58,244 bases of DNA from Ignavibacteriota bacterium. Lineage in GTDB: Bacteria; Bacteroidota; Ignavibacteria; Kapaibacteriales; UBA2268. Both the position numbers and the translations under genes were made by a program. The DNA lies in the NCBI GenBank assembly GCA_020437395.1, contig JAGQWJ010000015.1, forward strand, positions 1-58,244, written 5' to 3'. Each line of letters starts with the position of its first letter. Position 1 is the stretch's first letter. Positions 6,226-39,092 of the stretch are shown piece after piece. Under the pieces are notes generated by a model. That model was not told where the DNA came from, searched no databases, and saw nothing but the letters and a program-made list of their open reading frames with translations.

Positions 6226-6243
6226 ATTAATTTGAGATAAATT

Positions 6244-10671: not shown

Positions 10672-10679
10672 AAAAATTA

Positions 10680-11702
10680 ATGTCAATAATAAAATTAGAA
10701 AATGTCTCAAAGAGTTACGACGATGATAAGTTCGCAATACAAAATTTATCATTAGTTGTAAAAGATGGCGAGTTTCTTGTATTAGTTGGTCCATCGGGTT
10801 GTGGAAAATCAACTACATTGCGAATGATAGCAGGGCTAGAAAGTATAACTAGTGGTGAAATTTCGATTGATGGTCAAGTTGTGAATGATCTTTCCCCAGG
10901 CAAAAGAGACATTGGGATGGTATTTCAGAATTATGCTCTTTATCCACACATGACCGTTGAAGAAAATCTTGCATTTCCTTTGAAAATTAGAAAAACAAAC
11001 AAAAAAAGTATTAATGATAAGGTTAATGAAATATCACAACTTGTAGAATTGAATGATTTGTTGAAACGTTATCCTAAGCAACTTTCAGGAGGACAGAGGC
11101 AAAGAGTAGCCCTTGGTAGAGCTATAATAAGAAATCCTAAAGTTTTTTTGTTTGATGAACCGCTATCGAATCTTGATGCGAAACTCAGAACTCAAATGAG
11201 AAATGAGATTATTTCGTTACAAAGAAAATTAAAAGTCACTGCAATTTACGTAACGCATGACCAAACAGAAGCAATGACTATGGGAGATAGAATAGTTATA
11301 ATGAACAATGGGCAAATAATGCAAATTGGAACACCTGATGAGATTTACAACAAGCCGTCTAACTTATTCACGGCTGAATTCATAGGTAGTCCAAAGATAA
11401 ATATTTTCACTGTTAATAATATATCAAAACTTGGAAATACATTGAGTATAAATGACAAAACTAAGTATATAGCTATAAGACCTGAAGATTTAATCATTGA
11501 TAAGCAGGGAACAATAGCATCTATTACTAATATAGAAAATCTAGGACATGAATTTTTATATCAATTGTCTATGGAAAATTCAAAATATGTTGTACGTAAC
11601 AATAGTACATTAGATGTTAACATTGGGCAATTAGTTGGTCTTAATATCAATTGCAGTAGATTATTACAATATGATGAAAAGGAAGAATTAATTTATGATT
11701 AA
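10680..11702 (+). CDS. MalK/UgpC-type ABC transporter ATP-binding protein
   Basis: This 340-residue ATPase resembles the ATP-binding subunit of carbohydrate importers (MalK, MsmK, UgpC). The ATPase domain has Walker [10 protein letters not shown] near residue 37, signature [14 protein letters not shown], Walker [17 protein letters not shown] and switch [15 protein letters not shown]. After about residue 240 comes a shortened TOBE-type regulatory domain ([11 protein letters not shown]); typical members are 360-380 residues. No permease or binding protein is nearby, so it is an orphan ATPase that may serve transporters elsewhere. It overlaps the next gene by eight bases. Confidence 0.92.
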
Positions 11703-13665
11703 CGTTTCTAACTTAACTTTATCATTTGGTGGTCGAACTTTACTTGATGAAATTACTTTTGTACTAAACCCAAAAGAAAGAGTAGGATTAATTGGTCGTA
11801 ACGGACAAGGTAAATCTACTTTATTAAAAATATTGATAGGTTTAACTACTCCAAACGAAGGCAATATCTCGCATCCAAAAGATTATGAAATTGGTTATTT
11901 GCCACAAGAGGGTGGTGCCAAATCTGATTTAACTTTATTCGATGAAGTAAAAAAAGCATTCGCAGCTCAAAATCAACTGACGGAAAGAATAGATAGAATT
12001 ACAAATGAGATTGGAAATAGAAACGATTATCATACTGATGACTATAATAACCTAATAATAAAATTAGCTGAGCTAAACGATCATTTGAATATTCTTGATT
12101 CTGGATCTATAGAAGCAAAAATCGAAAGAGTTTTGATAGGATTAGGGTTCAAAAGAGATGAATTCGAAAAATATTGCAATCAATTCTCAGGTGGTTGGCA
12201 AATGAGAATAGAATTAGCTAAAATTCTATTAAGTAAACCAGATTTGATTTTACTTGACGAACCAACAAACCATTTGGATATTGAATCTATAATGTGGTTA
12301 GAATCATTTCTCAAAGATTATTATGGTGCAGTTGTGATAGTATCACACGATAAGAGATTTTTGAACAATGTCACCAATAGAACAATTGAAATCTTCAATG
12401 GTAAAATTTTCGATAAAAAATTCTCATATAGCAGATTTATTGAAGAAAGAAAAGCTGATATCGAATTACAAAAAAAAGCTCAAATCAACCAAGAAAGACA
12501 TATAAAGAGTGTCGAACAATATGTAGAGAGATATAGGGCAAAAGCACGTCATGCATCGCGGGCACAATCGAAACTCAAACAACTAGATAAACTAGACAAA
12601 ATAGAAATCGATGATTTTGAAGATAAAAGAATCAAGTTCAAATTCCCAGAACCACCTCGTTCGGCGAAACTTGTAGTTGAGACAAAAGGCATTCAAAAGA
12701 GTTTTGGTCATAAACATGTATTAAAAGGTGTTGATTTTGCTTTAGAAAGAGGCGAGAAAGTCTCTTTTATAGGTAAAAATGGGACTGGTAAATCAACTTT
12801 AACAAAAATTATAACTGAGCATATTGATTATGATTTGGGTGAGCTTAAATTTGGTAGCAATGTCAAATTAGGATATTTTAGACAAGACCAATCTCAATTG
12901 CTCAACGAAGAGTTAACAGTTTTGGATACTATAGCCAATGTGGCAAATGAAGATATTAGACCTTACGTAAGAGACTTATTAGGTGCATTTCTTTTCTCTG
13001 GAGACGACGTTCAGAAAAAAGTAAAAGTACTTTCTGGAGGTGAAAGAGCTCGTTTGTCAATTGCCAGATTGTTACTTGAACCTACTAACTTTCTTGTTAT
13101 GGACGAACCGACAAACCATTTGGATATTTCATCAAAAGAGATACTAAAAGATGCTTTAAAAAGCTTTTCTGGTGCTTTGATTTTAGTTTCACATGACCGT
13201 GATTTCCTTCAGGGGATAACTGATAGGACAATAGAGTTCACAGAACAAGGCACTAAAGAGTACTTAGGGGATATAGACTACTATCTTGATAAAAGGGAAT
13301 TCTCTGATATTACTGAAATTGATCTAGAAAAAGTACCAAAGAATAATAATGATTGTTACGAAAAGGAAAAAAGTGATTCACAACAGAAAAGACTAAAACT
13401 AAAAGAATTAGAAAAGACTAAAAGAAAAATTGAAAGAGAGATAAGTGAAACCGAGAATAATATTAGTGATTTTGAAGAAAAAATGAATGATTTGGATGAA
13501 GGTTTTTCCAACCCTGATATTTATAATGACCCTGAAAGAGTTTCTAATCTTAAAATAGAGTATAGCCAATTAGAAACTAAACTAAATGAGTCTATGGAAA
13601 AGTGGACAGAGTTAAATACTAAATTAGATGAAACTTTGTCAGAAATTTCTATCCACCAAACTTAG
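11695..13665 (+). CDS. ABC-F family ATPase (ribosome-associated type)
   Basis: ABC-F proteins have two ATPase domains and no membrane part; many act on the ribosome E site in translation control or antibiotic protection. The 656-residue product has NBD1 ([39 protein letters not shown]) and a charged interdomain linker (about residues 245-320, the P-site tRNA-interaction motif region). NBD2 ([37 protein letters not shown]) and a C-terminal coiled coil (about 550-656) follow. This layout resembles the Uup/YdiF/YheS housekeeping groups rather than known resistance proteins, but subgroup cannot be fixed by eye. It converges with the NlpC/P60 gene, overlapping it by 17 bases. Confidence 0.95.
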
Positions 13666-24002: not shown

Positions 24003-24575
24003 GTGAAAAAATCAGTTCTGGACTACGGACTTAGAGTCAGATTACCAATAACAATAATGGTGATTCTTATTTCCTACGCAATTACATTCTACGTATCTCG
24101 TTCTGAACGAGACGGAGTTGGGTACAAGCCTGATCAGCCTATTAATTTCTCACACAAACTTCACGCGGGAGAAATGGGTATAGATTGTCAATACTGTCAT
24201 GTTGGAGTTGAAAAATCGCGACATGCGGTAGTACCTCAAGCCAGCACTTGTATGAACTGTCATACAATGGCTAAAACAGACAGCCCTGAAATTAAGAAAT
24301 TAACAAATTACTACGAATCGGGTGAAGCTATTCCTTGGAAAAGAGTTCATCAGGTACCTGAGTATGCTTACTTCAATCATAGTGCACACGTAAATGCGGG
24401 CATAGATTGTGCTTCTTGCCATGGTGATATCGCATCTATGGAAAAAGTAGAGCAGGTACATGCTTTTAATATGGCTAATTGCTTGAGTTGTCATAGAGCT
24501 CCTCATGAAAAAATGCCATATCTAGCTGATGAAATTAAGAAGGGTCCCGAAGATTGTAGTGCTTGTCACAGATAA
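24003..24575 (+). CDS. actA: Alternative complex III pentahaem cytochrome c subunit ActA
   Basis: ACIII oxidises menaquinol and reduces a periplasmic electron carrier, replacing the bc1 complex. ActA is its membrane-anchored multihaem subunit. The 190-residue product has one N-terminal membrane helix (about residues 14-30). Five CXXCH haem-binding motifs follow: CQYCH, CMNCH, CASCH, CLSCH and CSACH. Further His residues (FSHKLHAG, FNHSAHV) can serve as distal ligands. Five haems is the normal ActA count. The start is GTG; no nearby ATG would include the membrane helix. It is the first gene of a 15-kb operon ending at the terminator at 39063. Confidence 0.95.
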   Translation: MKKSVLDYGLRVRLPITIMVILISYAITFYVSRSERDGVGYKPDQPINFSHKLHAGEMGIDCQYCHVGVEKSRHAVVPQASTCMNCHTMAKTDSPEIKKLTNYYESGEAIPWKRVHQVPEYAYFNHSAHVNAGIDCASCHGDIASMEKVEQVHAFNMANCLSCHRAPHEKMPYLADEIKKGPEDCSACHR

Positions 24576-24780: not shown

Positions 24781-27700
24781 ATGAATAACTCAGTGGATAA
24801 AAATAAAAATCAAATTGATTTGCCAGTAGTGAAATCCGATTCAAAGCCCTCTGTTTGGAGAAGCTTAGATGAATATGATAATACTAATTCTGACAATCAA
24901 TTAAAAGTAAAAGCAAACGAATTTGCTGATGGTGCTGAGAATTTTGATATCAGCTCGAAATCTAAATTCTCAAGAAGGAAGTTTATGGCACTTATGTCTG
25001 CTTCTTCTGCTATGGCAATGGCTGCTTGTACTGACTATCGTGATAAAGGCGAAATAGTACCTTACATTGATAAACCTGAAGAGGTTATACCTGGTATTCC
25101 TAATTTCTATGCTTCTACTCTTATTAGTGATGGAAGCGGACAAGGTGTACTTGTAAAAACTAGAGAGGGAAGACCTATCCTTATTGAAGGTAATCCTCAA
25201 CATCCAATTTCTAAAGGTAAATTGGATTCGAATGGTATAGCAAGATTGCTTGACATGTACGATCCGAATAGATTGCAAAACCCTAGAAAACTACAAGAGT
25301 CAAAACTTGTAGATACAGACTGGGGTACAGTTGATAAAGAAATTATTCAATCTTTGAATTCGGCTTCAAGTTCTGGAAAAGAAATTGCGTTGTTCACAGG
25401 TAAGATAATATCTCCTACTTTTGCAAAGCTTATTGAAGATTTCAAAGCAAAGTACCCTACTACTAAAGTATATAGCCACGAATTATTCAATGATAATAAT
25501 AAGCAAGAAGCTTGGAATAAGTCAACTGGTGGAACAACATATCCACTCATACACTTGGATAAAGCATCTATTATTTTGTCTATTGATTCAGATTTCTTAG
25601 GAACTGATGGCAATGTAAATGAAAATATTAGACAGTTTGTTGTTAATAGAGATTTTGAAAATCCAGCAAACTTCAGTAGATTTTATCAAGTTGAAGGCTC
25701 TTATACTTTGACAGGTTCTAATGCAGACTATAGATTAAGATTAACACCAGAAAACTATTTGGATGTTATAGCTTCTTTAGTTAATCATTTTGCAGCTAAA
25801 CAAGGCAAACAAACAATGTCAGGTTTCAAGTCATTGGAAGCACTTGCAAAAGAAAATCATTGGAAACATGAAGCAGTTTCTAAGTTAATCAATGATTTAG
25901 AAAGCAATAGAGGCAAAGCTATTGTAATAGGTGGTAAACAATTGTCTGTCGATCACCATATTGCTATTAATTATTTGAATGAATTAATAGGTGCTAATGA
26001 GCTTTATAATAAGAGTGAATCTGATTACAATGTTATAAGTTTGTCAAATGATAAAGAAATTTCTTCACTTGCGAGCAGAATGAAATCTGGCAATGTCGGT
26101 GTTTTAATTAATATTGACAAAAACCCTACTTATCATTTGCCTAAACTATTTAGCAAAGAAAATTTAAGCAAAGTTAAGACAGTAGTTTCGCTTAATGAAT
26201 TTGAAAATGAAACTACAAACAATAGCAATTATGTTCTAGGCATTAATCACGATATCGAATCTTGGGGAGATGCCAAAATAAGAACAGGGGTGATTTCGAC
26301 TCAACAACCTGTGATTGCACCACTTTACAATACAAGACAAAAAGAAGCAATACTTTTAAACTGGATTAATAACGTTGAGAATTACTCCGAAGATGTTTAT
26401 CACAAATACTTACAAAGTAATTGGGAAACAAACATTTATCCTTCATTGAATAGATCTGTTCCTTTCAAGGAATTTTGGTTCGCAACACTTCATGATGGTG
26501 TAACAACTTTCAATGAAACTAGCATCGTTCCAACTGAATTTGATGTTAGTACAGTTAATAGTATCAAGCCAACAAAGAAATCTAACTATAGCGTTATCTT
26601 ACAAGAAAATTATTTTATTAGAGATGGTAGATATGCTGGAAATGGGTTCCTTCAAGAATCAGCTCATCCTATAACTAAAGTTACTTGGGATAACTGCGCT
26701 ATGGTATCGCCAGCTACTTCTAAAGAATTAGGAGTCGAGATTGGAGATATGCTAGAAGTAACTCTTAATGGTGTTGCTATAGAGTTGCCAACTTTGATTC
26801 AACCTGGTATGGCTGAGAAAGTAATAGCAGTTGATTTAGGATATGGAAGAACTAATAGTAGTCCAATAGGAAATGGTGTAGGATTCGATGTTACACCGTT
26901 TATGTCTGAAAAAGGAATATCAAATTGGATTTATACTGGTGCTTCTGTCAAATCAACTGGTAATAAGTATGAATTAGTCTCTACTCAAGAACATCATGCA
27001 CTCGATGATGAGTTTTTAAGAACTCAAGTAAGAAAAGACGAGAAAGGGAATGTAATTGGGGGAGATGAAACTTTTGCTCGTGCTAGAGGAATAATTCAAG
27101 AATCAACGGTGGAAGGATATTTAAAAAATCCAAGGATTCTAAAAGAACATACTCATAAAGTTTTCAGCATTACCAAAGACTTTGAATATAACAACATGAA
27201 ATGGGCAATGTCAATCGATATGAATAAATGTATTGGTTGTAATGCTTGTAGCATTGCGTGTTATGTAGAAAATAATATTCCTGTAGTTGGTAAAGAAGAA
27301 GTTGGCTATGGTCGTGAAATGGGATGGATGCGAATAGATAGATATTTTGCAGGTACACCAGACGATCCAATAATGAGTAATCAACCAATGCTTTGTCAAC
27401 ATTGTGACAATGCACCTTGTGAAAACGTATGCCCAGTAGTTGCAACTACACACAGTCAAGATGGACTAAATCAGATGGTCTATAATCGTTGTGTAGGAAC
27501 ACGTTATTGTGCAAATAACTGTCCTTATAAAGTTAGAAGATTTAATTTTTATGATTTCAGAGATAATTTAGCAAACGGCTATTATAAAACAGAATCAACT
27601 AAGATTATGATGAACCCTGAGGTTACTATCAGAGCAAGAGGGGTAATGGAAAAATGTACATTCTGTGTACAAAGAATATCAGAAGCAAAACAAAAAGCTA

Positions 27701-27936
27701 AAGAAGAAGGCAGAGCACTTAAAGGTTCTGATGTAACTACAGCTTGTCAAGACGCTTGTCCAGCAAATGCGATTGAGTTTGGAAATGCGAATGATAAAGA
27801 TTCAAGATTAGCGATGATGAGAGATCATAATCTTGGGTACCATGTATTAGACTATTTAAATGTGAAACCAAACGTAACATATTTAGCAAAATTACGGAAT
27901 TCAGATTCATTGGGAGTGAAGAGTGAGCACCATTGA
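24781..27936 (+). CDS. actB: Alternative complex III iron-sulfur/molybdopterin-like subunit ActB
   Basis: The 1051-residue product is the periplasmic electron-transfer subunit. It has an ActB-type N-terminal extension (VWRSLDEYD) and a Tat signal [20 protein letters not shown] (twin Arg at 65-66, possible lipobox Cys83). The B1 domain (about 85-790) resembles molybdopterin oxidoreductases but has no visible cofactor-ligand motif or N-terminal iron-sulfur cysteines, as known for ACIII. The B2 ferredoxin-like domain (about 800-1030) has cysteine groups [41 protein letters not shown] and CQDACP. These fit three [4Fe-4S] and one [3Fe-4S] cluster. It overlaps actC by 14 bases. Confidence 0.96.
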
Positions 27937-29305
27937 TTATACAAAAAATGAAGTAAACGTCCATGGGAACAGGTCTCTGAAAGAGATTGACGATTTAATC
28001 GTTGCACCCTTAGACAGAATACCAGATAAGAGATTTTTTATAGCAATTGGATTTACTTCCACTTTGCTATTAATTGGAGTAATAGGAGTAGCATTATCAT
28101 TGTATTATGGTACTGGACTTTGGGGTAATAATAATCCTGTGGGCTGGGCACTTCCTATTGTAAATTTCGTATTTTGGGTTGGTATCGGACACGCAGGAAC
28201 GTTAATTTCTGCAATTTTATTTCTCTTAAGACAAAGATGGAGAAATGGTATTGCAAGATTTGCTGAAGCTATGACAATATTTGCTGTCATAACTGCTTTA
28301 ATATTCCCAATTATCCACACTGGACGACCTTGGGTTGCCGCTGTCTATCTATTACCTTATCCAAATCAACATGATATTTGGGTGAATTTTAACTCTCCTT
28401 TACTGTGGGACGTATTCGCTGTTTCAACATACTTTACAGTTTCTCTTGTGTTCTGGTATGTGGGTCTAATCCCTGATTTCGCTGTTCTAAGAGATAGAGC
28501 AACTGGTAAAATTAAAAAAGTTATTTATTCAATATTTAGTTTAGGTTGGAGATTTTCTAACAGACACTGGCAACATTACGAAATGACGTATTTGATTTTA
28601 GCTGGCCTTGCAACTCCACTTGTACTTTCAGTTCATACTATAGTATCCTTTGACTTTGCAGTATCAATCCTACCAGGATGGCATACTACTATATTCCCGC
28701 CATATTTCGTGGCTGGTGCTATCTTCTCCGGATTTGCAATGGTTCAAAATTCGCTGATTGTTATTAGAAAAGTATTTGATATGAATGATTTAATTCCTTT
28801 GAAAACTCTAGAAACAATGAATAAAATCATTTTATTAACTGGAACTATGGTAGGTTATGCGTATTCTATGGAGTTTTTCATAGCTTGGTACTCAGGTAGT
28901 CAACCAGAATACTTCACTTTTGTTAATAGAGCATTTGGACCTTATTCTTGGGCATATTGGACAATGTTTAGTTGTAACGTATTTATCCCTCAACTATTCT
29001 GGTTCAAGAAAATCAGAACAAGTATAATCCCAATGTTTATCATTGCAATATTTGTGAATGTTGGTATGTGGTTCGAAAGATTTGTAATTGTAATTACATC
29101 ATTATCTAGAGACTTTTTACCATCAAGTTGGGCATATTACAGACCGACAATTACCGATTTTGCAATACTATTAGGAAGTTTTGGTTTGTTCTTTACTCTA
29201 ACATTATTATTTACAAGATTCTTACCTTCGATAGCAATTGCTGAAATTAAAGCTGTATCCGAAGGAGCACAACCATCTCATCACGGAGGTGAAGACCATG
29301 AGTAA
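27923..29305 (+). CDS. actC: Alternative complex III quinol-binding membrane subunit ActC
   Basis: ActC is a NrfD/PsrC-type protein with ten membrane helices that binds menaquinol. The 460-residue product has hydrophobic segments throughout. Typical motifs are [18 protein letters not shown] (near residue 72), [19 protein letters not shown] (near residue 128) and [20 protein letters not shown] (near residue 233). The start is GTG 27923, inside the end of actB. The C-terminus carries a His-rich SHHGGEDHE tail. The next gene starts eight bases before its end. Confidence 0.95.
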
Positions 29306-30431
29306 ATTATATTCTGTAGCGGCTTTATTTAATACGCCAGACGATATTATGCATGCAGCAGCAAAAGTTGCTGATGCTGGTTATGAAAAATATGACGTAA
29401 ATACTCCTTACCCTGTCCACGGTATGGATGGTGCGATGAAATTAAAATCATCAAAAATGGGGTATTATACTATTGCAATTGGTTTGACGTGTATGTCATT
29501 AATGTTGTTCTTTATGTATTGGGTTTATAACATTGATTATCCTCAAGTAATTGGAGGTAAACCTTTATTCCCTTTACCTGCATTTGTGCCAATTATGTTC
29601 GAAATTACTGTTCTAACAGGTGCGGTACTAACAGTTGCAGTAATGTTAATCTTTTATTTCAAATTTCCTAATAATGCACATCCGTTACATGATAGCGGTT
29701 ATATGAAAGCAGTATCATCGGATAAATTTGGAATTAATATTGAAGCTGAAGATTCTAATTTTGATTTAGATAAAGTAAAAGCATTTCTTTCTTCGTTAGG
29801 GGCTTACAAAGTAGATGAAATATATTTTGATGAAGAAGAAGCAAACACCAAACACAAAATATTAGATACTAAGTTTGTTTTTGGGATGTTTTTAATTGCA
29901 GGATTTACATCTTTGAGTGTTTATTTACACATGAATAAAGTGTTGTATATGCCACCATTTGATTGGATGTTAGTTCAGCATAAAGTAACTTCTCAAGATA
30001 AATCTGATTTCTTTAATAATGGAATAAGTTCAAGAGAGCCTGTGAAAGGGACAGTAGCGAGAGGATTTATGCCTTATTTATTTACCGATGATCCAGAAGG
30101 TGCTGCTGAGAACTTAGTAAATCCTTATGTAGCTGATGAAGAAAATATAGCACTTGGTAAGAGAAAATACTTAACATATTGTAGTCCTTGCCATGGTGAT
30201 TTAGGTAAAGGTGATTCAAGATTGAAAGGGCAATTTCCAAATGGTCCAACTGTTCACTCAGATAAAGTAAAATCATGGACAGATGGTCATATATATCATG
30301 TTATTAGTGAAGGACAAAACGTTATGCCTGGTTATAAGAAAACTGTAACAAGAAAAGAGAGATGGGCAATTGTGAATTATGTTAGAACATTGCAAAGAGC
30401 ACTAGACGCTAAAGAGGAGGATATGCAATGA
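29298..30431 (+). CDS. actD: Fused alternative complex III subunits ActD and ActE (DUF3341 plus cytochrome c)
   Basis: ATG 29298 is the likely start: GGAGG lies seven bases upstream, and it gives [18 protein letters not shown], the normal ActD beginning. Residues 1-180 are ActD (DUF3341), with two membrane helices at about 50-70 and 88-115. The chain then continues without a stop into a third helix (about 190-210) and a monohaem cytochrome c domain at about 275-365 with CSPCH and a candidate distal Met in NVMPGY. That second half corresponds to ActE. In described ACIII, ActD and ActE are separate proteins. The gene overlaps actC by 8 and actF by 4 bases. Confidence 0.92.
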
Positions 30432-31630
30432 GCAATCACGAAAAGAAAATAGAATATACTAAAAAAGAATTACCGAAAGGATTTCTGAAATATGGTTTAC
30501 CTCTTCTTTTAATTGGGATTATATCAGTTGTTCTAGCTTATCAATTTGATCCAATGAGAGCTTCTTTTAATAATATTATAGCTTTGTTGGTAGTAGTTAG
30601 CGTTGGAATGGGTGCTATATTCTTAGTTGCATTAGAGCACATTGCTGGTGCAGTGTGGAGTGTTCCATTTAGAAGAATTGCAGAACATCAAGGTTTTATA
30701 TTTTTGGCTACACCTTTGTTAGCAATCCCAATAATATTTAATATGCACGACATATTCGAATGGACACATAACAGCGTTGTATTGAATGACCCTATTTTAT
30801 ATCAAAAATCTCCTTACTTAAACACAGAGTTTTTTATTGCTCGATCAGTAGGAGTATTTGTATTAATGACATTCTTTCTATTTGTTTATCTTAGAAATTC
30901 TACAAAACAAGACACGACTCATAGTCAAAAAACGACTAAGATAAATGCTTTAATCTCAGCACCGTTTATGGTATTTTTTGCAATTGGGATTACACTTATT
31001 GCAATTGACTATGCCATGAGTTTGGAACCTCATTGGTTCTCTACTATTTTTGGAGTATATTATTTTGCAGGAACTTTTGCTACAGCAATGGCTGTTTTGA
31101 CCTTAATTACATTAAGTCTGAAGAGTAATGGTAATCTACTTAAGGAAATAAATAGAAATCATTACTACAGCATGGGTGGTTTAATGTTCGCATTCACTGC
31201 ATTTTGGATGTATATGGCATTTTCACAATATATGCTAATTTGGTACGCAAATATTCCAGAGGAAACATTCTGGTTTCTACCAAGAATGGAAAATGGATGG
31301 GAATATTTATCTATTGCACTAATATTAATCAAGTTTATAATACCGTTCGGGTTATTATTAAATAGAAACTCTAAAATGAACCCAAGTAGGTTGAAGTTAG
31401 CTTCATTTTGGATTATTGGTGCACATATTTACGATATGTATTGGTTAGTTATGCCGTCTTATAATAGAATGAGTGGTACAGAAGGTCCTGTATTTGGTTG
31501 GATTGAATTAAGTTTTATTGCCCTATCTGCTGGTATAATTTTAGTTTTTTACTACCTTGCGGCAAGAAATAAAAATCATATACCAATCGGTGATCCTAAG
31601 TTAAATAGAGCTTTAGATTTTCATATATAA
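30428..31630 (+). CDS. actF: Alternative complex III membrane subunit ActF
   Basis: ActF is the second NrfD-related integral subunit of ACIII, with ten membrane helices. The 400-residue product is strongly hydrophobic. It contains ALEHIAGAVWSVPFRRIAEH (near residue 67), AIDYAMSLEPHWFSTIFGVY (near residue 195), AFSQYMLIWYANIPEETFWF (near residue 263) and HIYDMYWLVMPSY (near residue 335), all ActF hallmarks. Its ATG overlaps the preceding stop as ATGCAATGA-type coupling (four shared bases). Confidence 0.95.
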   Translation: MSNHEKKIEYTKKELPKGFLKYGLPLLLIGIISVVLAYQFDPMRASFNNIIALLVVVSVGMGAIFLVALEHIAGAVWSVPFRRIAEHQGFIFLATPLLAIPIIFNMHDIFEWTHNSVVLNDPILYQKSPYLNTEFFIARSVGVFVLMTFFLFVYLRNSTKQDTTHSQKTTKINALISAPFMVFFAIGITLIAIDYAMSLEPHWFSTIFGVYYFAGTFATAMAVLTLITLSLKSNGNLLKEINRNHYYSMGGLMFAFTAFWMYMAFSQYMLIWYANIPEETFWFLPRMENGWEYLSIALILIKFIIPFGLLLNRNSKMNPSRLKLASFWIIGAHIYDMYWLVMPSYNRMSGTEGPVFGWIELSFIALSAGIILVFYYLAARNKNHIPIGDPKLNRALDFHI

Positions 31631-31650: not shown

Positions 31651-32574
31651 ATGTCAGATAACAAAAAATATCAAACAGAAGTTGACTTCAAACAAATATT
31701 CACTACACCCTCAAGATGGATGGGCTTGGTTTATTTAGTTGTTCTTGTTTCTATAATAATTGCTGGAAAATATTACGTTCAACATCAAGATTATATGTCA
31801 GACAACGATCCAAAGTTCATCAATAGCATAAAGTTAGATAGGGAAGACGATGTAGTTGAACAAAAAGGTCAATTGCAGGAAGGAATTAATGTAGAAGAAT
31901 TAGGGAAAGCGCCTTCTGAGGAATTAATAGCTACTGGAAAAGAGCTTTATCAAGCAAATTGTGTATCTTGTCATGGTGACAATGGTAAAGGTGATGGACC
32001 AGCTGGCGGCGGATTAAATCCACCACCTAGAAATTTTCATTCAACTGATGGTTGGACAAATGGACGTACTTTTGAAGGTATGTATAAAACTTTAGAAGAA
32101 GGAATTGTTGAAAATGGGATGAATTCATTTAATCAACTTTCTGTAAAAGAGAGATTTGGAATAATTCATTATATAAGAACCTTTGCTCAATTCCCTGATA
32201 TTACTGATGATGAGTTATCAAATTTAGATTTGACATATTCATTGGCAGATGGTAGAACTACTAATAATCAGATTACAATAGAAAAAGCAACTAAAATAAT
32301 TGCTAAAGAGAAAACAAGTAACTATAATGCTGTTTTATATAATTACAATAATTCTACTGAGAGTTCAATCATTAAGAAAAATACAGTTGATATTAATAGA
32401 GCTTTGTATTCTTTAAATAACAGTAATGATTGGAAATCAGATATTTATAAATTTAAAAATATTGTTTTAAGTGATTTACCACAAAATGGTTTCAATGCAG
32501 GAGTTGTGAATCTGACAGACGAAGAGTGGATACAATTACACTCAAAATTAGTTGGTTTATACTCAGTTAATTAA
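31651..32574 (+). CDS. Membrane-anchored monohaem cytochrome c with an unassigned C-terminal domain
   Basis: The 307-residue product has one N-terminal membrane helix (about residues 24-43) and a cytochrome c domain at about 92-180 with CVSCHGDNGKGDGPAGGGL and a candidate Met ligand in ENGMNSF. About 120 further residues, rich in Asn, Ser and Lys, match no family I recognise. Its position between actF and the SCO gene suggests it shuttles electrons from ACIII to the oxidase, whose subunit II has no haem-c domain of its own (inference). Confidence 0.88.
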   Translation: MSDNKKYQTEVDFKQIFTTPSRWMGLVYLVVLVSIIIAGKYYVQHQDYMSDNDPKFINSIKLDREDDVVEQKGQLQEGINVEELGKAPSEELIATGKELYQANCVSCHGDNGKGDGPAGGGLNPPPRNFHSTDGWTNGRTFEGMYKTLEEGIVENGMNSFNQLSVKERFGIIHYIRTFAQFPDITDDELSNLDLTYSLADGRTTNNQITIEKATKIIAKEKTSNYNAVLYNYNNSTESSIIKKNTVDINRALYSLNNSNDWKSDIYKFKNIVLSDLPQNGFNAGVVNLTDEEWIQLHSKLVGLYSVN

Positions 32575-32583
32575 TTTAATATA

Positions 32584-33372
32584 ATGTTATTTAAAAATAT
32601 TGTTCTTTGTTTATTGTTACCTGCTATATTATTTGCTCAAGAAGAAGCAAATAAGAAAGTAGGAGTAGAAGAAAAGCTAAACGATTACATTTCTAAAGAT
32701 TTGATTTTTACTAATTCAGATGGAAAAAAAGTAAATCTATTAGAGCAATTCGATGGTAAACCTGCTGTAATATCAATGGTTTACTTTAACTGCCCTGGGA
32801 TTTGTAGTCCTTTACTAGAAGGTTTTGCAGAGGTAATAGAATCAACAGATTTGATACCAGGTCAAGATTATAACGCATTCTCTATAAGTTTTGACCATAA
32901 CGAAGATTCAGAAATATCTTCAAAATGGAAAAAAAACTATTTAGCTGGACTTCAAAGAGAGATAAATCCTGATGGTTGGAAATTCATGACTGGAGATAGT
33001 CTTCAGATACATAAATTAACAAAATCACTCGGTTTTAATTTCTCAAAAGAAGGTGAAAAAGACTATTTACACAGTGCAGTTTTGGTAGTGCTTTCTCCTG
33101 ATGGCAAAATAACTAGATACCACAATGGTACAGAGTTTTTACCCTTCAATTTCAAAATGTCGATAATTGAAGCTAATAAAGGTTTGGCACAACCAACAAT
33201 AAACAATTTTTTAGAAATGTGTTTCAAATATGATCCTGAGGGAAGGACATATGTATTGAACTTACTCCCGATTGTTGGAGGAACTGTAACACTAACGTTA
33301 CTAATATTTATTGGATATTTAATATTTTCTTCAAAAAAAGAGAAAAATAAATTGGAGACAGTTGTAAAATGA
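32584..33372 (+). CDS. SCO1/SenC-family copper chaperone
   Basis: SCO proteins deliver copper or reduce the cysteines of the CuA site in oxidase subunit II. The 262-residue product has a signal peptide (to about residue 18) and a thioredoxin fold with the copper-binding pair CPGIC (near residue 76) and the third ligand His in YLHSAVLVV (near residue 162). A C-terminal membrane helix lies at about residues 228-248. Its TGA overlaps the coxA ATG by four bases, tying assembly factor and oxidase together. Confidence 0.95.
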   Translation: MLFKNIVLCLLLPAILFAQEEANKKVGVEEKLNDYISKDLIFTNSDGKKVNLLEQFDGKPAVISMVYFNCPGICSPLLEGFAEVIESTDLIPGQDYNAFSISFDHNEDSEISSKWKKNYLAGLQREINPDGWKFMTGDSLQIHKLTKSLGFNFSKEGEKDYLHSAVLVVLSPDGKITRYHNGTEFLPFNFKMSIIEANKGLAQPTINNFLEMCFKYDPEGRTYVLNLLPIVGGTVTLTLLIFIGYLIFSSKKEKNKLETVVK

Positions 33373-35057
33373 GCATAAGTACTACAACTAATAATAATTA
33401 TACGAATTTTTTTCAGGTCAAAACTAAGCATAAAGGTTTACTAGCTTGGTTATTGACAACTGACCATAAGCGTATTGGTATTATGTATTTAGTATCAATA
33501 TTGACTTTTTTCTTAGTTGGTTTAACATTTGCATTCTTAATGAGACTTGAGATGTTAACTCCGGGACCTACTATCGTAGATGCTCAGACTTACAACTCAT
33601 TCTTCACCCTTCATGGAATGATAATGGTGTTCCTTTTCATAATACCTGGAATACCTGCGGTGTTTGGCAACATATTTATACCATTGCAAATTGGTGCAGA
33701 AGATGTTGCATTTCCTAGGTTGAATTTATTATCTTACCATTTGTATTTGATAGGTGCTTTTTTAGCATTATATTCTTTAATATTCCAAACTCATATAGAT
33801 ACAGGTTGGACATTCTATGTGCCGTATAGTTTAAGAACGGGTACAGATGTAACGCTAACCCTCCTTGCTGCTTTTATTTTAGGATTCTCTTCTATATTGA
33901 CAGGTTTAAACTTTGTTACAACTTGTCACAGAATGAGAGTCAAAGGAATGAAGATGTTTGAGATGCCTTTATTTACATGGGCATTATATTCAACTGCATG
34001 GATTCAAGTTGTAGCGACTCCTATTATTGGAATAACAATTGTTTTAGTACTTTTAGAAAGAACGTTCAAATTTGGTATATTTGACCCTACATTAGGTGGG
34101 GACCCAGTCTTGTATCAACATTTATTCTGGATTTATTCGCATCCTGCCGTTTATATTATGGCAATACCAGCTTTCGGTATAATTTCCGATGTAGTAGCGA
34201 CTTTTTCTAGAAAATCTGTCTTTGGATACAAAGTGATGGCATATTCAACTTTAGCAATTGCTGTAATTGGATATATGGTTTGGGCTCACCACATGTTTAC
34301 AAGTGGTATGAGTGATACAGCTAGAACTGTGTTCTCTTTCTTGACATTCTTCGTTGCTATTCCAACTGGTGTTAAAGTATTTAACTGGGTAGCGACATTA
34401 TGGAGAGGAACAATTGTTCTTTCTTCACCAATGCTAATGGCGTTGAGTGCAATTTTCTTGTTCTCAATTGGAGGTTTAACAGGACTTCACTTAGGTGCCA
34501 TTTCTACTGATATACATTTACATGATACTTATTTTGTTATAGCCCACTTTCACTATGTGATTATAGGTGGTATATTATCTATGTTTATTGCTGGAATGCA
34601 TTATTGGTTCCCTAAAATATTTGGGAAAATGCATAATGAAAAAGTAGCAAAAGTTGGTGTCGTTTTATATTTCATAGGAGCGAATGTATTATATTTCCCA
34701 ATGTTTATAATGGGATATATGGGGATGCCAAGAAGATATTTTGACTATCTTCCAGAATATCAAATCTACCATCAAATTTCAACTGTTGGTTCGTGGATTT
34801 TGATTACTGCAATATTGTTAATGTTTATAAATTTACTAATTGGTATAATTAAAGGTAAGCCTGCTGGTCCAAATCCTTGGGGTGCTAAAACTCTTGAGTG
34901 GACAATGCCATCGCCTCCACCATTATTGAATTTTATTGAAACGCCTGTACCAAGTCATGATCCTTATGACTATCATGGTCATGACGAAAGAAATTTTAAA
35001 AACGGGAAATTTATAAAAAACGAAGAAAATGATATTATAAATCAGGAGAATAGCTAA
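33369..35057 (+). CDS. coxA: Cytochrome c oxidase subunit I, A2 type
   Basis: Subunit I of the haem-copper oxidase reduces oxygen and pumps protons. The 562-residue product has about 12 helices and all six metal-binding histidines: His82 (low-spin haem), His258, His307-His308 (CuB), His393 and His395 (haems). Helix VI reads IYSHPAVYIMAIPAFG. The proton-channel Glu of A1 enzymes is absent; the YSHPxVY pattern (Tyr256-Ser257, Tyr262 cross-linked) is that of A2 enzymes such as the Rhodothermus caa3 oxidase. The His/Asp-rich C-terminus (HDPYDYHGHDERN) is unusual. Confidence 0.96.
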   Translation: MSISTTTNNNYTNFFQVKTKHKGLLAWLLTTDHKRIGIMYLVSILTFFLVGLTFAFLMRLEMLTPGPTIVDAQTYNSFFTLHGMIMVFLFIIPGIPAVFGNIFIPLQIGAEDVAFPRLNLLSYHLYLIGAFLALYSLIFQTHIDTGWTFYVPYSLRTGTDVTLTLLAAFILGFSSILTGLNFVTTCHRMRVKGMKMFEMPLFTWALYSTAWIQVVATPIIGITIVLVLLERTFKFGIFDPTLGGDPVLYQHLFWIYSHPAVYIMAIPAFGIISDVVATFSRKSVFGYKVMAYSTLAIAVIGYMVWAHHMFTSGMSDTARTVFSFLTFFVAIPTGVKVFNWVATLWRGTIVLSSPMLMALSAIFLFSIGGLTGLHLGAISTDIHLHDTYFVIAHFHYVIIGGILSMFIAGMHYWFPKIFGKMHNEKVAKVGVVLYFIGANVLYFPMFIMGYMGMPRRYFDYLPEYQIYHQISTVGSWILITAILLMFINLLIGIIKGKPAGPNPWGAKTLEWTMPSPPPLLNFIETPVPSHDPYDYHGHDERNFKNGKFIKNEENDIINQENS

Positions 35058-35058
35058 A

Positions 35059-35739
35059 TTGGGTACTACTACAGTTGATGCTCACGGGCATTCAAATAAT
35101 CATGCAGGTCATGGTTACGGTGATAACGATCAATTATATGTACATTTCCATAGGGATGATTATGGTTCCAAATTTGGTATGTGGTTGTTCTTATTTACAG
35201 AAGTATTATTATTTGGAGGTCTATTCGTACTGTATTATGGGTACAGAATAGCATACCCTCAAGACTATCATAATGCGGCTATGGAACTAAACATTGTAAT
35301 GGGTGCTGTCAATACTCTTGTATTGTTAACCAGTTCACTTACTATGGTACTTTCTATTGTGGCATTGAGAAGAGAGAATATTAAAACATCACTACTATAT
35401 TTGGCAATTACATTTGGATTTGGTGCAACATTTTGCGTCAATAAGTATTTCGAATGGTCTGCAAAAATTCATCATGGTATTTACCCTGGTTCTTTAGAAT
35501 TACAAGAAACGAGACCAGCTGGTGAGGTAGTATTTTTTGGTCTTTATTACTTAATGACAGGATTACATACTTTCCACGTAATAGTTGGTATGGTAGTAAT
35601 GGTATTCTGTTATATATTTATTAAAACTGGAACAATTAATTCAAACAAATACATCGTATTAGAAAACGCAGGATTATACTGGCACTTAGTTGATTTGATT
35701 TGGATTTTCTTATTCCCATTATTCTATCTATTACATTAA
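35059..35739 (+). CDS. coxC: Cytochrome c oxidase subunit III
   Basis: The 226-residue product has about five membrane helices and the subunit-III motifs KFGMWLFLFTEVLLFGGLF (near residue 38), FYLMTGLH-like GLYYLMTGLHTFHVIVGM (near residue 155) and YWHLVDLIWIFLFPLFYLL at the C-terminus. Translation starts at TTG 35059, one base after the coxA stop. No later start would include the first helix. The N-terminus is His-rich (DAHGHSNNHAGHGYG), which might bind metal (inference). The call is secure from these motifs and the operon position. Confidence 0.94.
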   Translation: MGTTTVDAHGHSNNHAGHGYGDNDQLYVHFHRDDYGSKFGMWLFLFTEVLLFGGLFVLYYGYRIAYPQDYHNAAMELNIVMGAVNTLVLLTSSLTMVLSIVALRRENIKTSLLYLAITFGFGATFCVNKYFEWSAKIHHGIYPGSLELQETRPAGEVVFFGLYYLMTGLHTFHVIVGMVVMVFCYIFIKTGTINSNKYIVLENAGLYWHLVDLIWIFLFPLFYLLH

Positions 35740-35749
35740 AAGGTTGAAA

Positions 35750-36067
35750 ATGAGCGGACACAACGAAAATACAAGTGTTGATACACATGAGCATTTACCT
35801 AGTTATGGTAAAAATGTTATGATATGGTTAGTATTGGTTGCATTAACAGCATTAACTGTTACTGTAGCAAGCATTAACCTTGGTGATTATACATTCTTTT
35901 TTGCTATGCTTATTGCTTCAATAAAAGCAATGCTTGTTATAAATATATTTATGCATATAAAATATGATGATTTACTTATGAAAGGCATCTTAGTTGCATG
36001 TGGGTTCATATTTATGATCATTTTTGTTATTTATTCATTTGATTTATTCAATACATACACTGGATAG
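35750..36067 (+). CDS. coxD: Prokaryotic cytochrome c oxidase subunit IV
   Basis: ATG 35750 (a TTG two codons earlier is possible) gives a 105-residue protein with three membrane helices and the family signature AMLIASIKAMLVINIFMHIK near residue 58. This small subunit assists assembly or stability. It lies 10 bases after coxC and 3 bases before coxB, an order (I, III, IV, II) that places subunit II last. Confidence 0.9.
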   Translation: MSGHNENTSVDTHEHLPSYGKNVMIWLVLVALTALTVTVASINLGDYTFFFAMLIASIKAMLVINIFMHIKYDDLLMKGILVACGFIFMIIFVIYSFDLFNTYTG

Positions 36068-36070
36068 AAG

Positions 36071-36688
36071 ATGTTTGAACAAACTTCAAAATACGTAGGC
36101 ACAGTAGATGGGGCAATGCTCTATATTACTGCATTTTCGGTACTCATGCTACTATTGATTACTGTTGCGATGATTTACTTTGTAATAAAGTATAGAGCAA
36201 GTAAAAACCCAATACCAACTCAATATCATGGTAATGCAGTTATTGAGGTAATTTGGATTGTTATCCCGACTATTATAGTATTATCAATGTTCTATTATGG
36301 ATATACTGATTTCTCCGATTTACGTAATACTAAACAATTTGATGAAGAGTATCATGTAACTGCAAAAATGTGGGATTGGGACTTTAAGTACGATAATGGA
36401 GTTATTACGGATACATTGTACGTTCCTGTAGGTAAAACTTTAAAATTTAATATTACATCTATAGATGTATTACATAGTTTCTATTTACCAGCGTTTAGGA
36501 TAAAAGAAGATGCAGTTCCGGGAAGAAACGGTTTTATTTTTATAACTCCTAATAAAACTGGTGTTTATGATATCGCTTGCGCAGAGTACTGCGGTGTTAA
36601 TCACTGGGATATGTACAAGAAGCTTATTGTTATGGAACAAGATGAATACTCTAAATGGTATAACTCTCAGTCTCCTGATAAAAATTAA
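36071..36688 (+). CDS. coxB: Cytochrome c oxidase subunit II (CuA domain, no haem-c domain)
   Basis: Subunit II takes electrons at its dinuclear CuA centre. The 205-residue product has two membrane helices (about 16-39 and 57-77) and a cupredoxin domain with the complete CuA ligand set: His135, Cys170, Cys174, His178 and Met181 (CAEYCGVNHWDM). The WDWDF aromatic patch for electron entry is at 101-105. Many A2 oxidases carry a fused cytochrome c here; this one stops after the cupredoxin domain. The electron donor must therefore be separate, plausibly one of the two membrane cytochromes in the operon. No signal peptide is obvious. Confidence 0.95.
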   Translation: MFEQTSKYVGTVDGAMLYITAFSVLMLLLITVAMIYFVIKYRASKNPIPTQYHGNAVIEVIWIVIPTIIVLSMFYYGYTDFSDLRNTKQFDEEYHVTAKMWDWDFKYDNGVITDTLYVPVGKTLKFNITSIDVLHSFYLPAFRIKEDAVPGRNGFIFITPNKTGVYDIACAEYCGVNHWDMYKKLIVMEQDEYSKWYNSQSPDKN

Positions 36689-36699
36689 GAATATTTGAA

Positions 36700-36719
36700 A
36701 CCTCTTAAAATCAAGAGGT
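36700..36719 (+). promoter_or_regulatory. Stem-loop just before the ctaB start codon
   Basis: ACCTCTT and AAGAGGT form a perfect 7-bp stem around a 6-base loop, ending five bases before ATG 36725. The AAGAGG arm could also serve as a ribosome binding site, so the hairpin could mask it. It has no T run and does not look like a terminator. Confidence 0.45.
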
Positions 36720-36724
36720 ATTTG

Positions 36725-37609
36725 ATGAACAGTTCTGTGAAAATAGAAGAAGTAAGTATAATAAAAGATTTATTTGATTTAGGTAAATACAGAATATCGA
36801 TTTCCGTAGCAATTACTGCTGTAGCAGGTTATTTACTTTATGAAATCAAATTTGATTTGAATTTGTTTTTAACTTTTTTTGGCACTATGTTAATGTCTAT
36901 GGGAGCTGCCTCTTTTAATCATTGGCAAGAAAGAAATCTTGATTCATTGATGGAAAGAACTAAAAAAAGACCTATTGCTTCAGGTAGAATTAATCAACAA
37001 AAAGGTTTTGCAATTTCAAGCGTGCTTAGTTTAATGGGCATGTTATTACTTTTAGGAACTGGTGAATTAGTGGCTATGTTAGTGGGACTAGTTACTTTGT
37101 TGTTTTACAACGTTGTTTATACACCAATGAAAAAAGTATCAAATTTGGCAGTTTTACCTGGTGCTATAGTAGGAGGTTTACCACCACTAATTGGTTGGGC
37201 TGCGGCTGGAGGATATTTTTATGCTCCTGCTATTTGGGCTTTGGCTCTTTTTTTATTCTTGTGGCAAATGCCTCATTTTTGGTTGTTGTTGCTCTTATTT
37301 GATGACCAATATGCAAAGGCAGGATATGTGATGCTCAATAGATGGTTAAACAGAGCACAAATTGGTAGAGTTACCTTCGTATGGATAGTTTCACTTGCAT
37401 CATTAGCATTGATAGTACCATTTTACGGAGTAATAGACAATCGATACACTCAAATAATCTTTTTTCTATCAGAAATAGTATTATTGTATAATGCTAGATT
37501 TCTTCTTGAAAAAAAATTGGAACGGAAAAGAATCAGAAAGACGTTTATGTATATTAATATATATGTACTTTTGGTTTTAATTTTAATAATAATTGATAAA
37601 ATAATTTAG
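36725..37609 (+). CDS. ctaB: Protohaem IX farnesyltransferase (haem O synthase)
   Basis: CtaB attaches farnesyl to haem b, giving haem O on the way to haem A for the oxidase. It is an inner-membrane UbiA-type prenyltransferase with about nine helices. The first Asp motif reads FNHWQERNLDSLMERTKKRP (near residue 65) and the second cytoplasmic motif reads FLWQMPHFWLLLLLFDDQYAKAGYVML. ATG 36725 gives 294 residues. A TTG at 36695 would give 304 but would put the stem-loop inside the coding region. Haem A synthase (ctaA) is not in the window. Confidence 0.93.
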   Translation: MNSSVKIEEVSIIKDLFDLGKYRISISVAITAVAGYLLYEIKFDLNLFLTFFGTMLMSMGAASFNHWQERNLDSLMERTKKRPIASGRINQQKGFAISSVLSLMGMLLLLGTGELVAMLVGLVTLLFYNVVYTPMKKVSNLAVLPGAIVGGLPPLIGWAAAGGYFYAPAIWALALFLFLWQMPHFWLLLLLFDDQYAKAGYVMLNRWLNRAQIGRVTFVWIVSLASLALIVPFYGVIDNRYTQIIFFLSEIVLLYNARFLLEKKLERKRIRKTFMYINIYVLLVLILIIIDKII

Positions 37610-37623
37610 AAAAAGGCAAAGTA

Positions 37624-39042
37624 ATGGAACTATTTAATGACTTGGTTATTCCCGTTGGTTCTAGTCATTTGACGTTAATCAGATTGATGCTATATATTTC
37701 AGCATCATTCTTATTCGCCTATACAGGTTTGTTGTTTGGCTCCGTATTTCTTTCCACTAGAGCAGCTAGTAAAGCAAAGAAATATAATGACTTCAGATAT
37801 CAGAAATTGGCACAAGACCTTATTAAAGTTGGTACTGGAATAACAGGTATGTGGTTCGGTCTCGGTATTGTACCGTTACTTAGTTTTATATTGAGTTATC
37901 CTCAGTTATTAGCTGGTACTAAAGGAGATGTAGTTGGCTACCTAATAGTAGCATTGCTTGTATTCTCGATGGCTGTTGCTTCTATCTACGTTTATAAAAA
38001 TTCAATAAATTTTAAATCTATATTTTATTCATTTAAAACTAATGTACGATCAAAAAGTGAGTCAATTGTAGAAGAATATCACTCTTTGGATGAAGATATA
38101 GAGAATACTGGTTCTTTTACGGGTATATGGGGCATATTATTGCTTTTAGTATCTACATGGTTCCTTTCAGGAGCAACAACTTATGCTTACGACCACTCTA
38201 TGTGGGGTCAATCTATATTTACAATGTTACTTAGTGCAAATACAGTTTTCAAAGCACTATTAATATTGTCTATGGGTGTTGCTTTTGCTTCAGCAGTCTA
38301 TTTGTTCTATGCATTCTCATGGCAAGATGGATACAAGTTTGCTAATGATGATGAAAAGGAACTTTCGAAGAAATTTGTTCGTAAATTTGGCTTATACTCA
38401 GCTTTATTAATACCATTAATCTACGCTTTCCAAATTGTCTCTATACCTAATAATGCACTTTCAGGATTAATGTTCGTATTTGGATTGTTGTCCTTGTTAT
38501 TTGTTGTGTTCTTCGCACAATCGATTTATTTGACAAAATCAAGTGAACATGCATCAGGTGTCAAATATGGATTTATGTTTATAATGATATCTTTCGCTAT
38601 GTTTGCAGCCCAAGATCAACAAGCTTTCCACATAAGTATAGCTGAAAATCTAAATAATATATCTGAAATACACAACAAAGCAGAAGAAGAAAGACAAGCA
38701 CTTTATGCTAAATCAGAAGAAGAACCACAAGTAGATGCTCAAGCTATTTTTGATACACGTTGTGTTGCTTGTCATAAATTCGATACAAAGTCGGTTGGAC
38801 CCGCTTATAACGATGTTGTTCCAAAGTATGAAGGAAAAGAAGGTGATTTAGTTAAATTTATACTTAACCCAACACCTCAGAATCCTGCTGAATATCCTGC
38901 TGGTATGCCTGCACAAGGTCTTTCACCTGCTGAAGGTAAGGCATTGGCGAAATGGCTTTTAGATAAAGTATTAGGTGGCGGCGAAAAAGAAGCTGAACCA
39001 GCAGCTGAAAAACCTGCTGAAGAACAAACAGCCACTAAATAA
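37624..39042 (+). CDS. Polytopic membrane protein with C-terminal cytochrome c domain
   Basis: The 472-residue product has about eight predicted membrane helices (around residues 19-41, 71-90, 103-124, 166-186, 203-227, 253-273, 277-300 and 310-328). A charged linker and a monohaem cytochrome c domain (about 370-450, CVACH with a candidate Met ligand in PAGMPAQG) follow, then an Ala/Glu/Pro-rich tail. I do not recognise the membrane part. Scattered His residues (in SSHLTLIR, YDHSMWG, KSSEHAS, QAFHIS) could bind haem or quinone. As the last gene of the ACIII/oxidase operon, it could pass electrons to the oxidase or form another redox module (inference). Confidence 0.88.
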   Translation: MELFNDLVIPVGSSHLTLIRLMLYISASFLFAYTGLLFGSVFLSTRAASKAKKYNDFRYQKLAQDLIKVGTGITGMWFGLGIVPLLSFILSYPQLLAGTKGDVVGYLIVALLVFSMAVASIYVYKNSINFKSIFYSFKTNVRSKSESIVEEYHSLDEDIENTGSFTGIWGILLLLVSTWFLSGATTYAYDHSMWGQSIFTMLLSANTVFKALLILSMGVAFASAVYLFYAFSWQDGYKFANDDEKELSKKFVRKFGLYSALLIPLIYAFQIVSIPNNALSGLMFVFGLLSLLFVVFFAQSIYLTKSSEHASGVKYGFMFIMISFAMFAAQDQQAFHISIAENLNNISEIHNKAEEERQALYAKSEEEPQVDAQAIFDTRCVACHKFDTKSVGPAYNDVVPKYEGKEGDLVKFILNPTPQNPAEYPAGMPAQGLSPAEGKALAKWLLDKVLGGGEKEAEPAAEKPAEEQTATK

Positions 39043-39062: not shown

Positions 39063-39092
39063 AAAAATGCCACTCATTTGAGTGGCATTTTT
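39063..39092. terminator. Strong bidirectional terminator
   Basis: A 14-bp perfect stem, AAAAATGCCACTCA paired with TGAGTGGCATTTTT around two T, lies between the convergent ends of the respiratory operon (39042) and the M24 peptidase (39115). A-run and T-run flanks let it work on both strands. Confidence 0.93.

Follow-up and report, generated by a model that had tools for sequence, protein, structure and literature searches.

Gene content of the respiratory operon

The window, by which we mean the whole stretch of 58,244 nucleotides of Ignavibacteriota DNA analysed here, carries on its forward strand a respiratory operon that ends with a gene encoding a 472-residue protein. The open reading frame of this protein is genuine, running from an ATG to a stop codon, and the opposite strand in the same frame is full of stops. 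The features to which we refer are as follows.

24003-24575, plus strand: ActA-like multihaem cytochrome of ACIII
24781-27936, plus strand: ActB, iron-sulphur subunit of ACIII
27923-29305, plus strand: ActC, NrfD-like subunit of ACIII
29238-30431, plus strand: ActD fused to a cytochrome c domain (ActDE)
30428-31630, plus strand: ActF, assigned by position and a profile match to ActC
31651-32574, plus strand: monohaem cytochrome c with one N-terminal hydrophobic stretch
32584-33372, plus strand: SCO1/SenC copper chaperone
33369-35057, plus strand: COX1, haem-copper oxidase subunit I
35059-35739, plus strand: COX3
35744-36067, plus strand: COX4
36071-36688, plus strand: COX2 with a CuA motif and without a cytochrome c domain (205 aa, no CxxCH)
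36695-37609, plus strand: CtaB, haem O synthase
37624-39042, plus strand: 472-aa protein (open reading frame and homologue matches)
37624-38673, plus strand: its eight-helix membrane domain, residues 1-350, with a predicted bd fold and Leu at residue 30 (model, alignment and profiles)
38719-38979, plus strand: its class I cytochrome c domain, residues 366-452, with CVACH at 380-384 and Met428 (Pfam, fold and alignment)
39063-39092, minus strand: 13-pair hairpin in the gap to the convergent neighbour, terminator-like for the minus strand only

The order of the operon is ActA-B-C-DE-F, the monohaem cytochrome c, SCO, COX1-3-4-2, CtaB and the gene for the 472-aa protein. Because this last gene starts 14 nt after the ctaB stop codon, the gene 3' of it is convergent and a hairpin lies between the two, it can be said to close the operon. 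A first-pass annotation, made from the letters of the window, had described it in this way, and was likewise right in noting that it is encoded together with ACIII (ActA to ActF) and an oxidase (COX1-3-4-2) whose subunit II lacks a cytochrome of its own. The hairpin possibly serves both convergent genes; a hairpin scan gave four terminator-like sites in the region against 1.2 expected. ActF has no Pfam match over the cut-off and was recognised through its profile similarity to ActC. Among the best matches to ActD, which in the window carries the fused cytochrome c domain, frames are about 360-420 aa long in the GTDB family of the window, whereas those from elsewhere in the order measure about 180-230 aa.

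Topology and the cytochrome c domain

Two AlphaFold2 models of the protein contain eight helices long enough to span the membrane (residues 13-54, 76-95, 103-140, 146-189, 205-232, 242-273, 281-305 and 310-338) and an additional helix at 57-71. A hydropathy scan (19-residue mean above 1.6) marked seven of the eight, the helix at 310-338 falling under the threshold, in good agreement with the earlier estimate of about eight hydrophobic helices. The family means for lysine plus arginine, as raw counts that are not normalized for loop length, are 5.4, 4.3, 3.3 and 2.2 in the four presumed cytoplasmic loops, and 0.65, 0.36, 0.69 and 0.60 in the N-terminus and the three presumed periplasmic loops; the tether following helix 8 (338-370), presumed to lie outside, has a raw mean of 3.8. 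From this distribution over the loops both termini and the cytochrome are predicted to be outside, in the periplasm and on the CuA side.

The CVACH tail seen in the first reading of the sequence belongs to a class I cytochrome c domain, having both the CxxCH motif and a distal methionine. Pfam Cytochrom_C matches residues 371-446 (E 8e-8), the fold of the domain matches c551 (Z 10.5), and C380, C383, H384 and M428 are invariant in an alignment of 77 distinct members of the family (89 sequences minus 12 exact duplicates, with the frames below 380 aa at L101, L115 and L116 left out). In the PDB, most sequence matches were to cytochrome c proteins and fell within residues 361-448, and the remaining few had E-values no better than 0.9.

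A protein encoded at the same place in Melioribacter roseus has already appeared in print. The cluster there is numbered 0045-0040 for ACIII, 0039 for SCO and 0038-0035 for the oxidase, then 0034 and 0033 (PMC3534657, PMC5492636), and both the genome description of 2013 (PMC3534657) and the multi-omics study of 2017 (PMC5492636) call Mros0033 a class I soluble c551/c552 cytochrome, the former placing it 'encoded upstream' of the oxidase. The later study termed the oxidase cc(o/b)o3, with a CoxI of class A2, and in its membrane proteome Mros0033, like CoxI and CoxII, was reliably identified only in aerobically grown cells (PMC5492636). From the gene order and numbering we infer that Mros0033 is the orthologue of the 472-aa protein, and its label as 'soluble' is therefore very probably a misannotation. 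The published reading, in which a soluble class I cytochrome c shuttles electrons from ACIII to the oxidase, agrees with the c551 type of the cytochrome domain, but eight helices are predicted in the same chain and 77 distinct homologues align over the membrane part; unless the cytochrome domain is cleaved off this reading is contradicted already, and we give it almost no weight.

The membrane domain and cytochrome bd

The membrane part had initially been assigned to no recognised family, and in the narrow sense this is correct, as neither Pfam nor NCBIfam has a match to residues 1-350 (PF01654 and PF02322 included) and the NrfD/ActC family PF03916 does not match the protein. Its predicted structure, however, points to the cytochrome bd fold superfamily. 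An AlphaFold2 model of the membrane domain alone (48 rows) has a pLDDT of 90.2 and a pTM of 0.90, that of the full-length protein (20 rows) a pLDDT of 81.7. Among 982 chains compared with the membrane-domain model, cytochrome bd entries gave Z scores of 23.2-26.6, the best at 3.3 Å over 304 residues with 9% identity, and NrfD-like chains of ACIII and polysulphide reductase gave 14.6-19.6; apart from these two groups nothing exceeded 8.2, and the full-length model ranked the folds in the same way. CcmF and UbiA were considered as fold relatives and set aside, their Z scores being only about 7-8. The best Foldseek match of the membrane-domain model was also to a bd chain (E 3e-4), and the full-length model had no match under E 1e-3; as these E-values are modest, we rely on the VIA Z scores and on a chain of sequence comparisons.

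This chain begins with two distant relatives found in a profile search of the phylum, at L190:6669-7670 (E 3e-19) and L189:9094-10458 (E 4e-17), each preceded by a second gene with a frame of 492-527 aa and a cytochrome c of its own. The two-gene bd-like systems thus comprise L189:9094-10458 with 10445-12025 and L190:6669-7670 with 5190-6665; Pfam and NCBIfam name their cytochrome parts only and leave the membrane parts unmatched. Twenty rows collected from sequences of this kind form the bd-like alignment, and the family of the second gene is referred to as the partner. Profile comparison gave 99.2% (E 1e-19) for the bd-like rows against the family of the 472-aa protein, 97.8% (E 7e-13) for the partner against the bd-like rows, 95.6% (E 1e-8) for the partner against the 472-aa protein family and 95.4% (E 2e-8) for the partner against CydA, and the partner profile also found the true CydA of one genome (G020, E 3e-4). 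All controls were below 1%, both against the bd-like rows (ActC, COX3, CtaB, COX1 and ActF) and against the partner (ActC and COX3). The bd-like rows scored 13.2% against CydA and 12.0% against CydB, and the partner 1.4% against CydB. Direct hhalign comparison of the 472-aa protein family with CydA (2.1%) and CydB (8.2%) was not significant, with COX3 at 4.1% and the others below 1%, although this is a weak comparison in which CydA and CydB themselves, from the same small alignments, reach only 0.4%; homology to CydA consequently needs the partner family as a link.

By predicted fold, and by profile homology through these intermediates, the membrane domain is thus placed by descent within the cytochrome bd superfamily, with which it shares the fold over its entire length. 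The resemblance to NrfD and ActC is of another order, since the helical fold is similar but the Z scores are below those for bd (23-27) and a link in sequence is absent (<1%). The superfamily comprises the qOR, OR-C and OR-N families (Murali, Gennis and Hemp 2021, as cited in PMC10839748, PMC13189123 and PMC11707229). The two-gene systems at L189:9094-12025 and L190:5190-7670 are possibly oxygen reductases of the OR-C or OR-N type.

The same bd-like systems are the closest relatives found for both domains of the protein. A profile of its cytochrome domain scored 57 bits on the cytochrome of the L189 protein (L197), which has the same order of membrane domain followed by cytochrome c, whereas none of the 24 other c domains listed scored above 17; these belong to bd-like partners and, in selected loci, to COX2, ActDE and the monohaem cytochrome c of the operon. 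The simplest reading is that the cytochrome fusion was inherited from a bd-like ancestor and that a haem ligand was lost afterwards. The L189 and L190 systems differ in that they keep a histidine in the first transmembrane helix (TM1) and that their gene follows one for a CydA-like partner, itself bearing a cytochrome c; the surrounding sequence, read over 20 kb and 17 kb, showed no recognisable cox or ACIII gene. Maximum-likelihood analysis of 51 rows groups the 23 from the 472-aa protein family into one clade (99/100 support), the placement of which among the bd-like rows is weakly supported.

Loss of the haem ligand

The TM1 histidine is present in 20 of the 20 bd-like rows and, after the ligand roles in Escherichia coli CydA, we take it to be the ligand of the high-spin haem. 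In a joint alignment the corresponding column of the 77 distinct members of the 472-aa protein family holds Phe (45), Leu (28), Tyr (2), Val (1) or Trp (1), and never His; the residue in the window is Leu30. A second site, at column 213, which is presumably that of the low-spin haem ligand, has His in L196 and L197 and in eight of the 77 members, and Leu in the window, and it varies among the bd-like rows as well. Conservation of histidines had been put forward as a check on the membrane part, and the outcome is negative: no position in it exceeds 65% His in the 77 rows, the commonest being columns 15 (65%), 97 (56%) and 129 (47%), at which haem binding in some members is possible.

Because the TM1 histidine is replaced in every member, the protein is probably a catalytically dead bd subunit, and, with no conserved histidine elsewhere, its membrane domain most likely binds neither b nor d haem. 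What was at first taken for a membrane redox module would then be a scaffold, probably inactive in redox terms. The bd fold and homology could be thought to indicate a bd-type oxygen reductase in its own right, driven by quinol or by cytochrome, but the TM1 histidine, the second histidine and a partner subunit in the genome, by which such an enzyme is recognised, were not found for the protein of the window; profile searches of its genome found no CydA, CydB or CydA-like partner, and with no family-wide histidine in the membrane part we regard this reading as very improbable. The absence of the histidine, the lack of a detectable CydA-type partner in the genome of the window and the tie to a haem-copper oxidase operon all set the protein apart from cytochrome bd. 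Other carriers do have cydAB, and in one (G008, contig C8, 52582-56402) cydA and cydB lie on the same strand directly 3' of the homologue of the gene described here.

Distribution

A protein search at E 1e-3 of 60 genomes, 36 from the GTDB family of the window and 24 from other families of its order, gave matches in 29, the window's own included. In 20 of them, namely the genome of the window and 19 relatives, the match extends over the membrane part with an E-value of 3e-24 or lower; in the other nine it was confined to residues 332-454, essentially the cytochrome. All 20 carriers belong to the window's GTDB family and none to the other families of the order. An apparent relative on contig C108 of G019 proved to be a different small cytochrome.

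A scan of public species genomes with one conserved motif found at least 72 loci, 69 of them with a frame of 404 aa or more. Most are labelled Ignavibacteria, Ignavibacteriales, Melioribacter, Stygiobacter, Kapabacteria or Bacteroidetes, the exceptions being a few labelled 'bacterium' and one (L060) labelled Desulfobulbaceae. Of 395 genomes sampled from the phylum, 62 had a match to a profile built on the membrane part alone. Fifty-eight of these are in the class of the window, eight in its own GTDB family and 50 in ten others; the class, as read from the names of the scan loci, is Ignavibacteria. The four outside it are G113, with the distant bd-like relative (E 4e-17), and the weak matches G135, G189 and G341. 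A scan of viral contigs found no relatives. One genome (G184) has a second copy outside any cox operon (L191:7774-9063), close to a gene that by eye resembles a DoxX protein and to an Rrf2-like regulator.

Linkage to the oxidase and to ACIII

In three of the 72 scan loci the contig stops at the gene. The 69 with readable upstream sequence all have ctaB directly upstream, 68 have COX2 upstream and 52 have ACIII genes there; of the 17 others, fifteen offer no more than about 6 kb of upstream sequence, and L103 and L104 have about 10 kb with other genes instead of ACIII. The link with oxidase operons elsewhere, on which the first reading of the locus depended, is therefore firm. In the 60-genome sample, ctaB is directly upstream in 18 of 18 regions, which overlap the 72-locus set (G018 and L104 are probably one genome). 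The oxidase block is kept without adjacent ACIII genes in G012, G018 and L103. In two other genomes the gene directly follows COX2: the contig of G147 then ends, and in G222 CtaB is next. The genes on the 3' side vary and look unrelated (eight loci).

Within the GTDB family of the window, a close COX1 is present in 21 of 36 genomes. Of these, 20 have the 472-aa protein; in the one exception, G019, the contig runs for only 34 nt beyond COX2. None of the 15 genomes without this COX1 has the protein. Five genomes (G007, G009, G010, G016 and G026) have ActD without this COX1, and all five lack the protein. G007, G009 and G010 have an ACIII block, with the gene for the monohaem cytochrome c included, but neither oxidase genes beside it nor the gene for the 472-aa protein; this cytochrome gene thus remains beside ACIII when the oxidase is missing. 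In G016 the contig breaks off behind the ACIII block. The other families of the order have a more distant COX1 (best match 38-44% identity) in 23 of 24 genomes and lack the protein. In the GTDB family of the window the 472-aa protein thus tracks the oxidase rather than ACIII. A divergent ACIII-like cluster in G026 (L233, contig C178) has weak matches to ActA, ActB and ActF and no recognised oxidase genes.

The suggestion that the protein co-occurs with ACIII is accordingly borne out in part, the operon link extending far beyond the window but its presence following COX1. An alternative in which the protein serves ACIII instead of the oxidase, perhaps as an anchor gathering ACIII electrons for several acceptors, would suit the ACIII genes found upstream in most loci and the short upstream sequence in nearly all of the others, but it fits poorly with the five genomes that have ActD and lack the protein, and with the three loci that keep the gene with oxidase genes and no adjacent ACIII; we consider it distinctly unlikely. 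A partnership with ACIII where the oxidase is present is a different matter, and may well exist alongside, since every genome of the GTDB family with this COX1 seems to have ACIII genes: ActD is found in 20 of the 21, and G001 has ActF, apparently on the same contig as L049 (same match coordinates). Pairwise distances of the 472-aa protein correlate with those of eight operon genes at 0.76-0.83 (36 loci), no higher for the oxidase than for ACIII, and so do not separate the two kinds of partnership.

The lack of a cytochrome in COX2 had been offered as the context for the protein. This is true of the window but cannot be the whole reason for it, as 16 of 68 loci encode a COX2 that bears a CxxCH and keep the homologue nevertheless; the protein is therefore probably more than a substitute for the COX2 cytochrome. 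The CuA motif CxExCxxxH is present in 64 of the 67 COX2 frames longer than 180 aa.

Proposed role

We think it reasonably likely that the 472-aa protein is a dead bd-type subunit that has been recruited as a dedicated partner, and probably a subunit, of an A-type haem-copper oxidase, with a carrier or subunit role. The computed observations behind this proposal are the predicted fold, the homology chain, the loss of the histidine, the fused cytochrome, the operon position and the co-occurrence. The eight-helix bd-fold domain would serve as a membrane anchor free of haem b and as a docking scaffold, holding the c551-like domain in the periplasm on a short tether; this domain would receive electrons from ACIII, through the c haems of ActA/ActDE or through that of the neighbouring cytochrome, and pass them to the CuA centre in COX2. 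Supply of electrons to CuA is the function with the best support, since the protein has a single c haem, is unlikely to carry a b or d haem and is linked to the oxidase. The idea of a tethered haem that bridges the two complexes, already raised from the sequence, therefore stands as the leading mechanism, in which we infer both the binding to the oxidase and the direction of electron flow. The protein may act structurally as a subunit, relay electrons ahead of the COX2 haem or help in assembly; in the 16 loci with a CxxCH-bearing COX2 a second relay is not obviously needed, which counts against the carrier role. A bolder version, which we offer tentatively and with rather less than even confidence, is that a bd relic has become a permanent structural subunit of an unrelated haem-copper oxidase across much of Ignavibacteria, positioning the cytochrome that feeds CuA within a supercomplex of ACIII, pseudo-bd protein and haem-copper oxidase.

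In caa3-type oxidases a cytochrome c is fused to COX2, and there is an ACIII-caa3 supercomplex. The arrangement that we propose is similar in having a tethered cytochrome c near CuA, and differs in that the cytochrome is on a separate eight-helix bd-like protein, which in 16 of 68 loci is present besides a COX2 cytochrome. Intake of electrons from cytochrome c would be a feature shared with OR-N enzymes, as these are thought to operate (PMC10839748). The nearest parallel in print is that of the bd-like enzymes near cytochromes in Nitrospira and Nitrospinota (PMC6606698, PMC10839748). In those parts of the literature covered by our search, which did not extend to Murali et al. (2021), there is no account of a bd-like protein in this operon. 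A widespread, tightly linked and so far unexplained respiratory gene thereby gains a structural identity, and the protein becomes a candidate 'pseudoenzyme' among respiratory oxidases, having lost an active-site ligand and been kept as a carrier. The proposal also makes a testable prediction about the route by which electrons of ACIII reach an oxidase that has no cytochrome on its COX2.

A role in assembly deserves consideration as well, given that the gene adjoins ctaB in 69 of 69 loci, lies between COX2 and ctaB in G222 and is near SCO, and that it is kept even where COX2 has its own cytochrome. The bd-like scaffold would then aid the insertion of haem or copper into COX1 or COX2, and the cytochrome c domain would act as reductant for copper or thiols. 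Against this, the only conserved cysteines are those of the c haem, and nearly all of the invariant residues are in the cytochrome domain. Detection together with oxidase subunits is, moreover, more usual for a working component than for an assembly factor. The syntenic product of M. roseus was reliably detected along with the oxidase subunits (PMC5492636), and overall we consider an assembly factor unlikely, if deserving of some weight.

Haem A synthesis

The analysis sharpens a further question, in that a haem-copper oxidase and a haem O synthase are present with no recognised haem A synthase. CtaA was found in 23 of the 24 genomes from the other families of the order and in none of the 36 of the window's GTDB family. 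With the gene adjoining ctaB, it could be supposed that the 472-aa protein replaces CtaA, the more so as the two are nearly mutually exclusive in the class, where CtaA is present in one of the 58 carriers (G147) and in nine genomes without the protein. CtaA works with His-bound haems, however, and the membrane part has no conserved histidine and no Pfam match to CtaA (PF02628). The published oxidase of this type is described as containing o/b haem rather than A (PMC5492636), and the 15 genomes of the GTDB family that lack both COX1 and the 472-aa protein also lack CtaA. As non-carriers lack CtaA too and no histidine is conserved, we do not take the exclusion as a sign of haem A synthesis, and a replacement of CtaA seems to us highly improbable. 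The oxidase of the window's GTDB family probably uses haem O or B. In the phylum sample as a whole CtaA is present in 227 of 395 genomes, ten of them in the class of the window, of which G147 alone carries the 472-aa protein.
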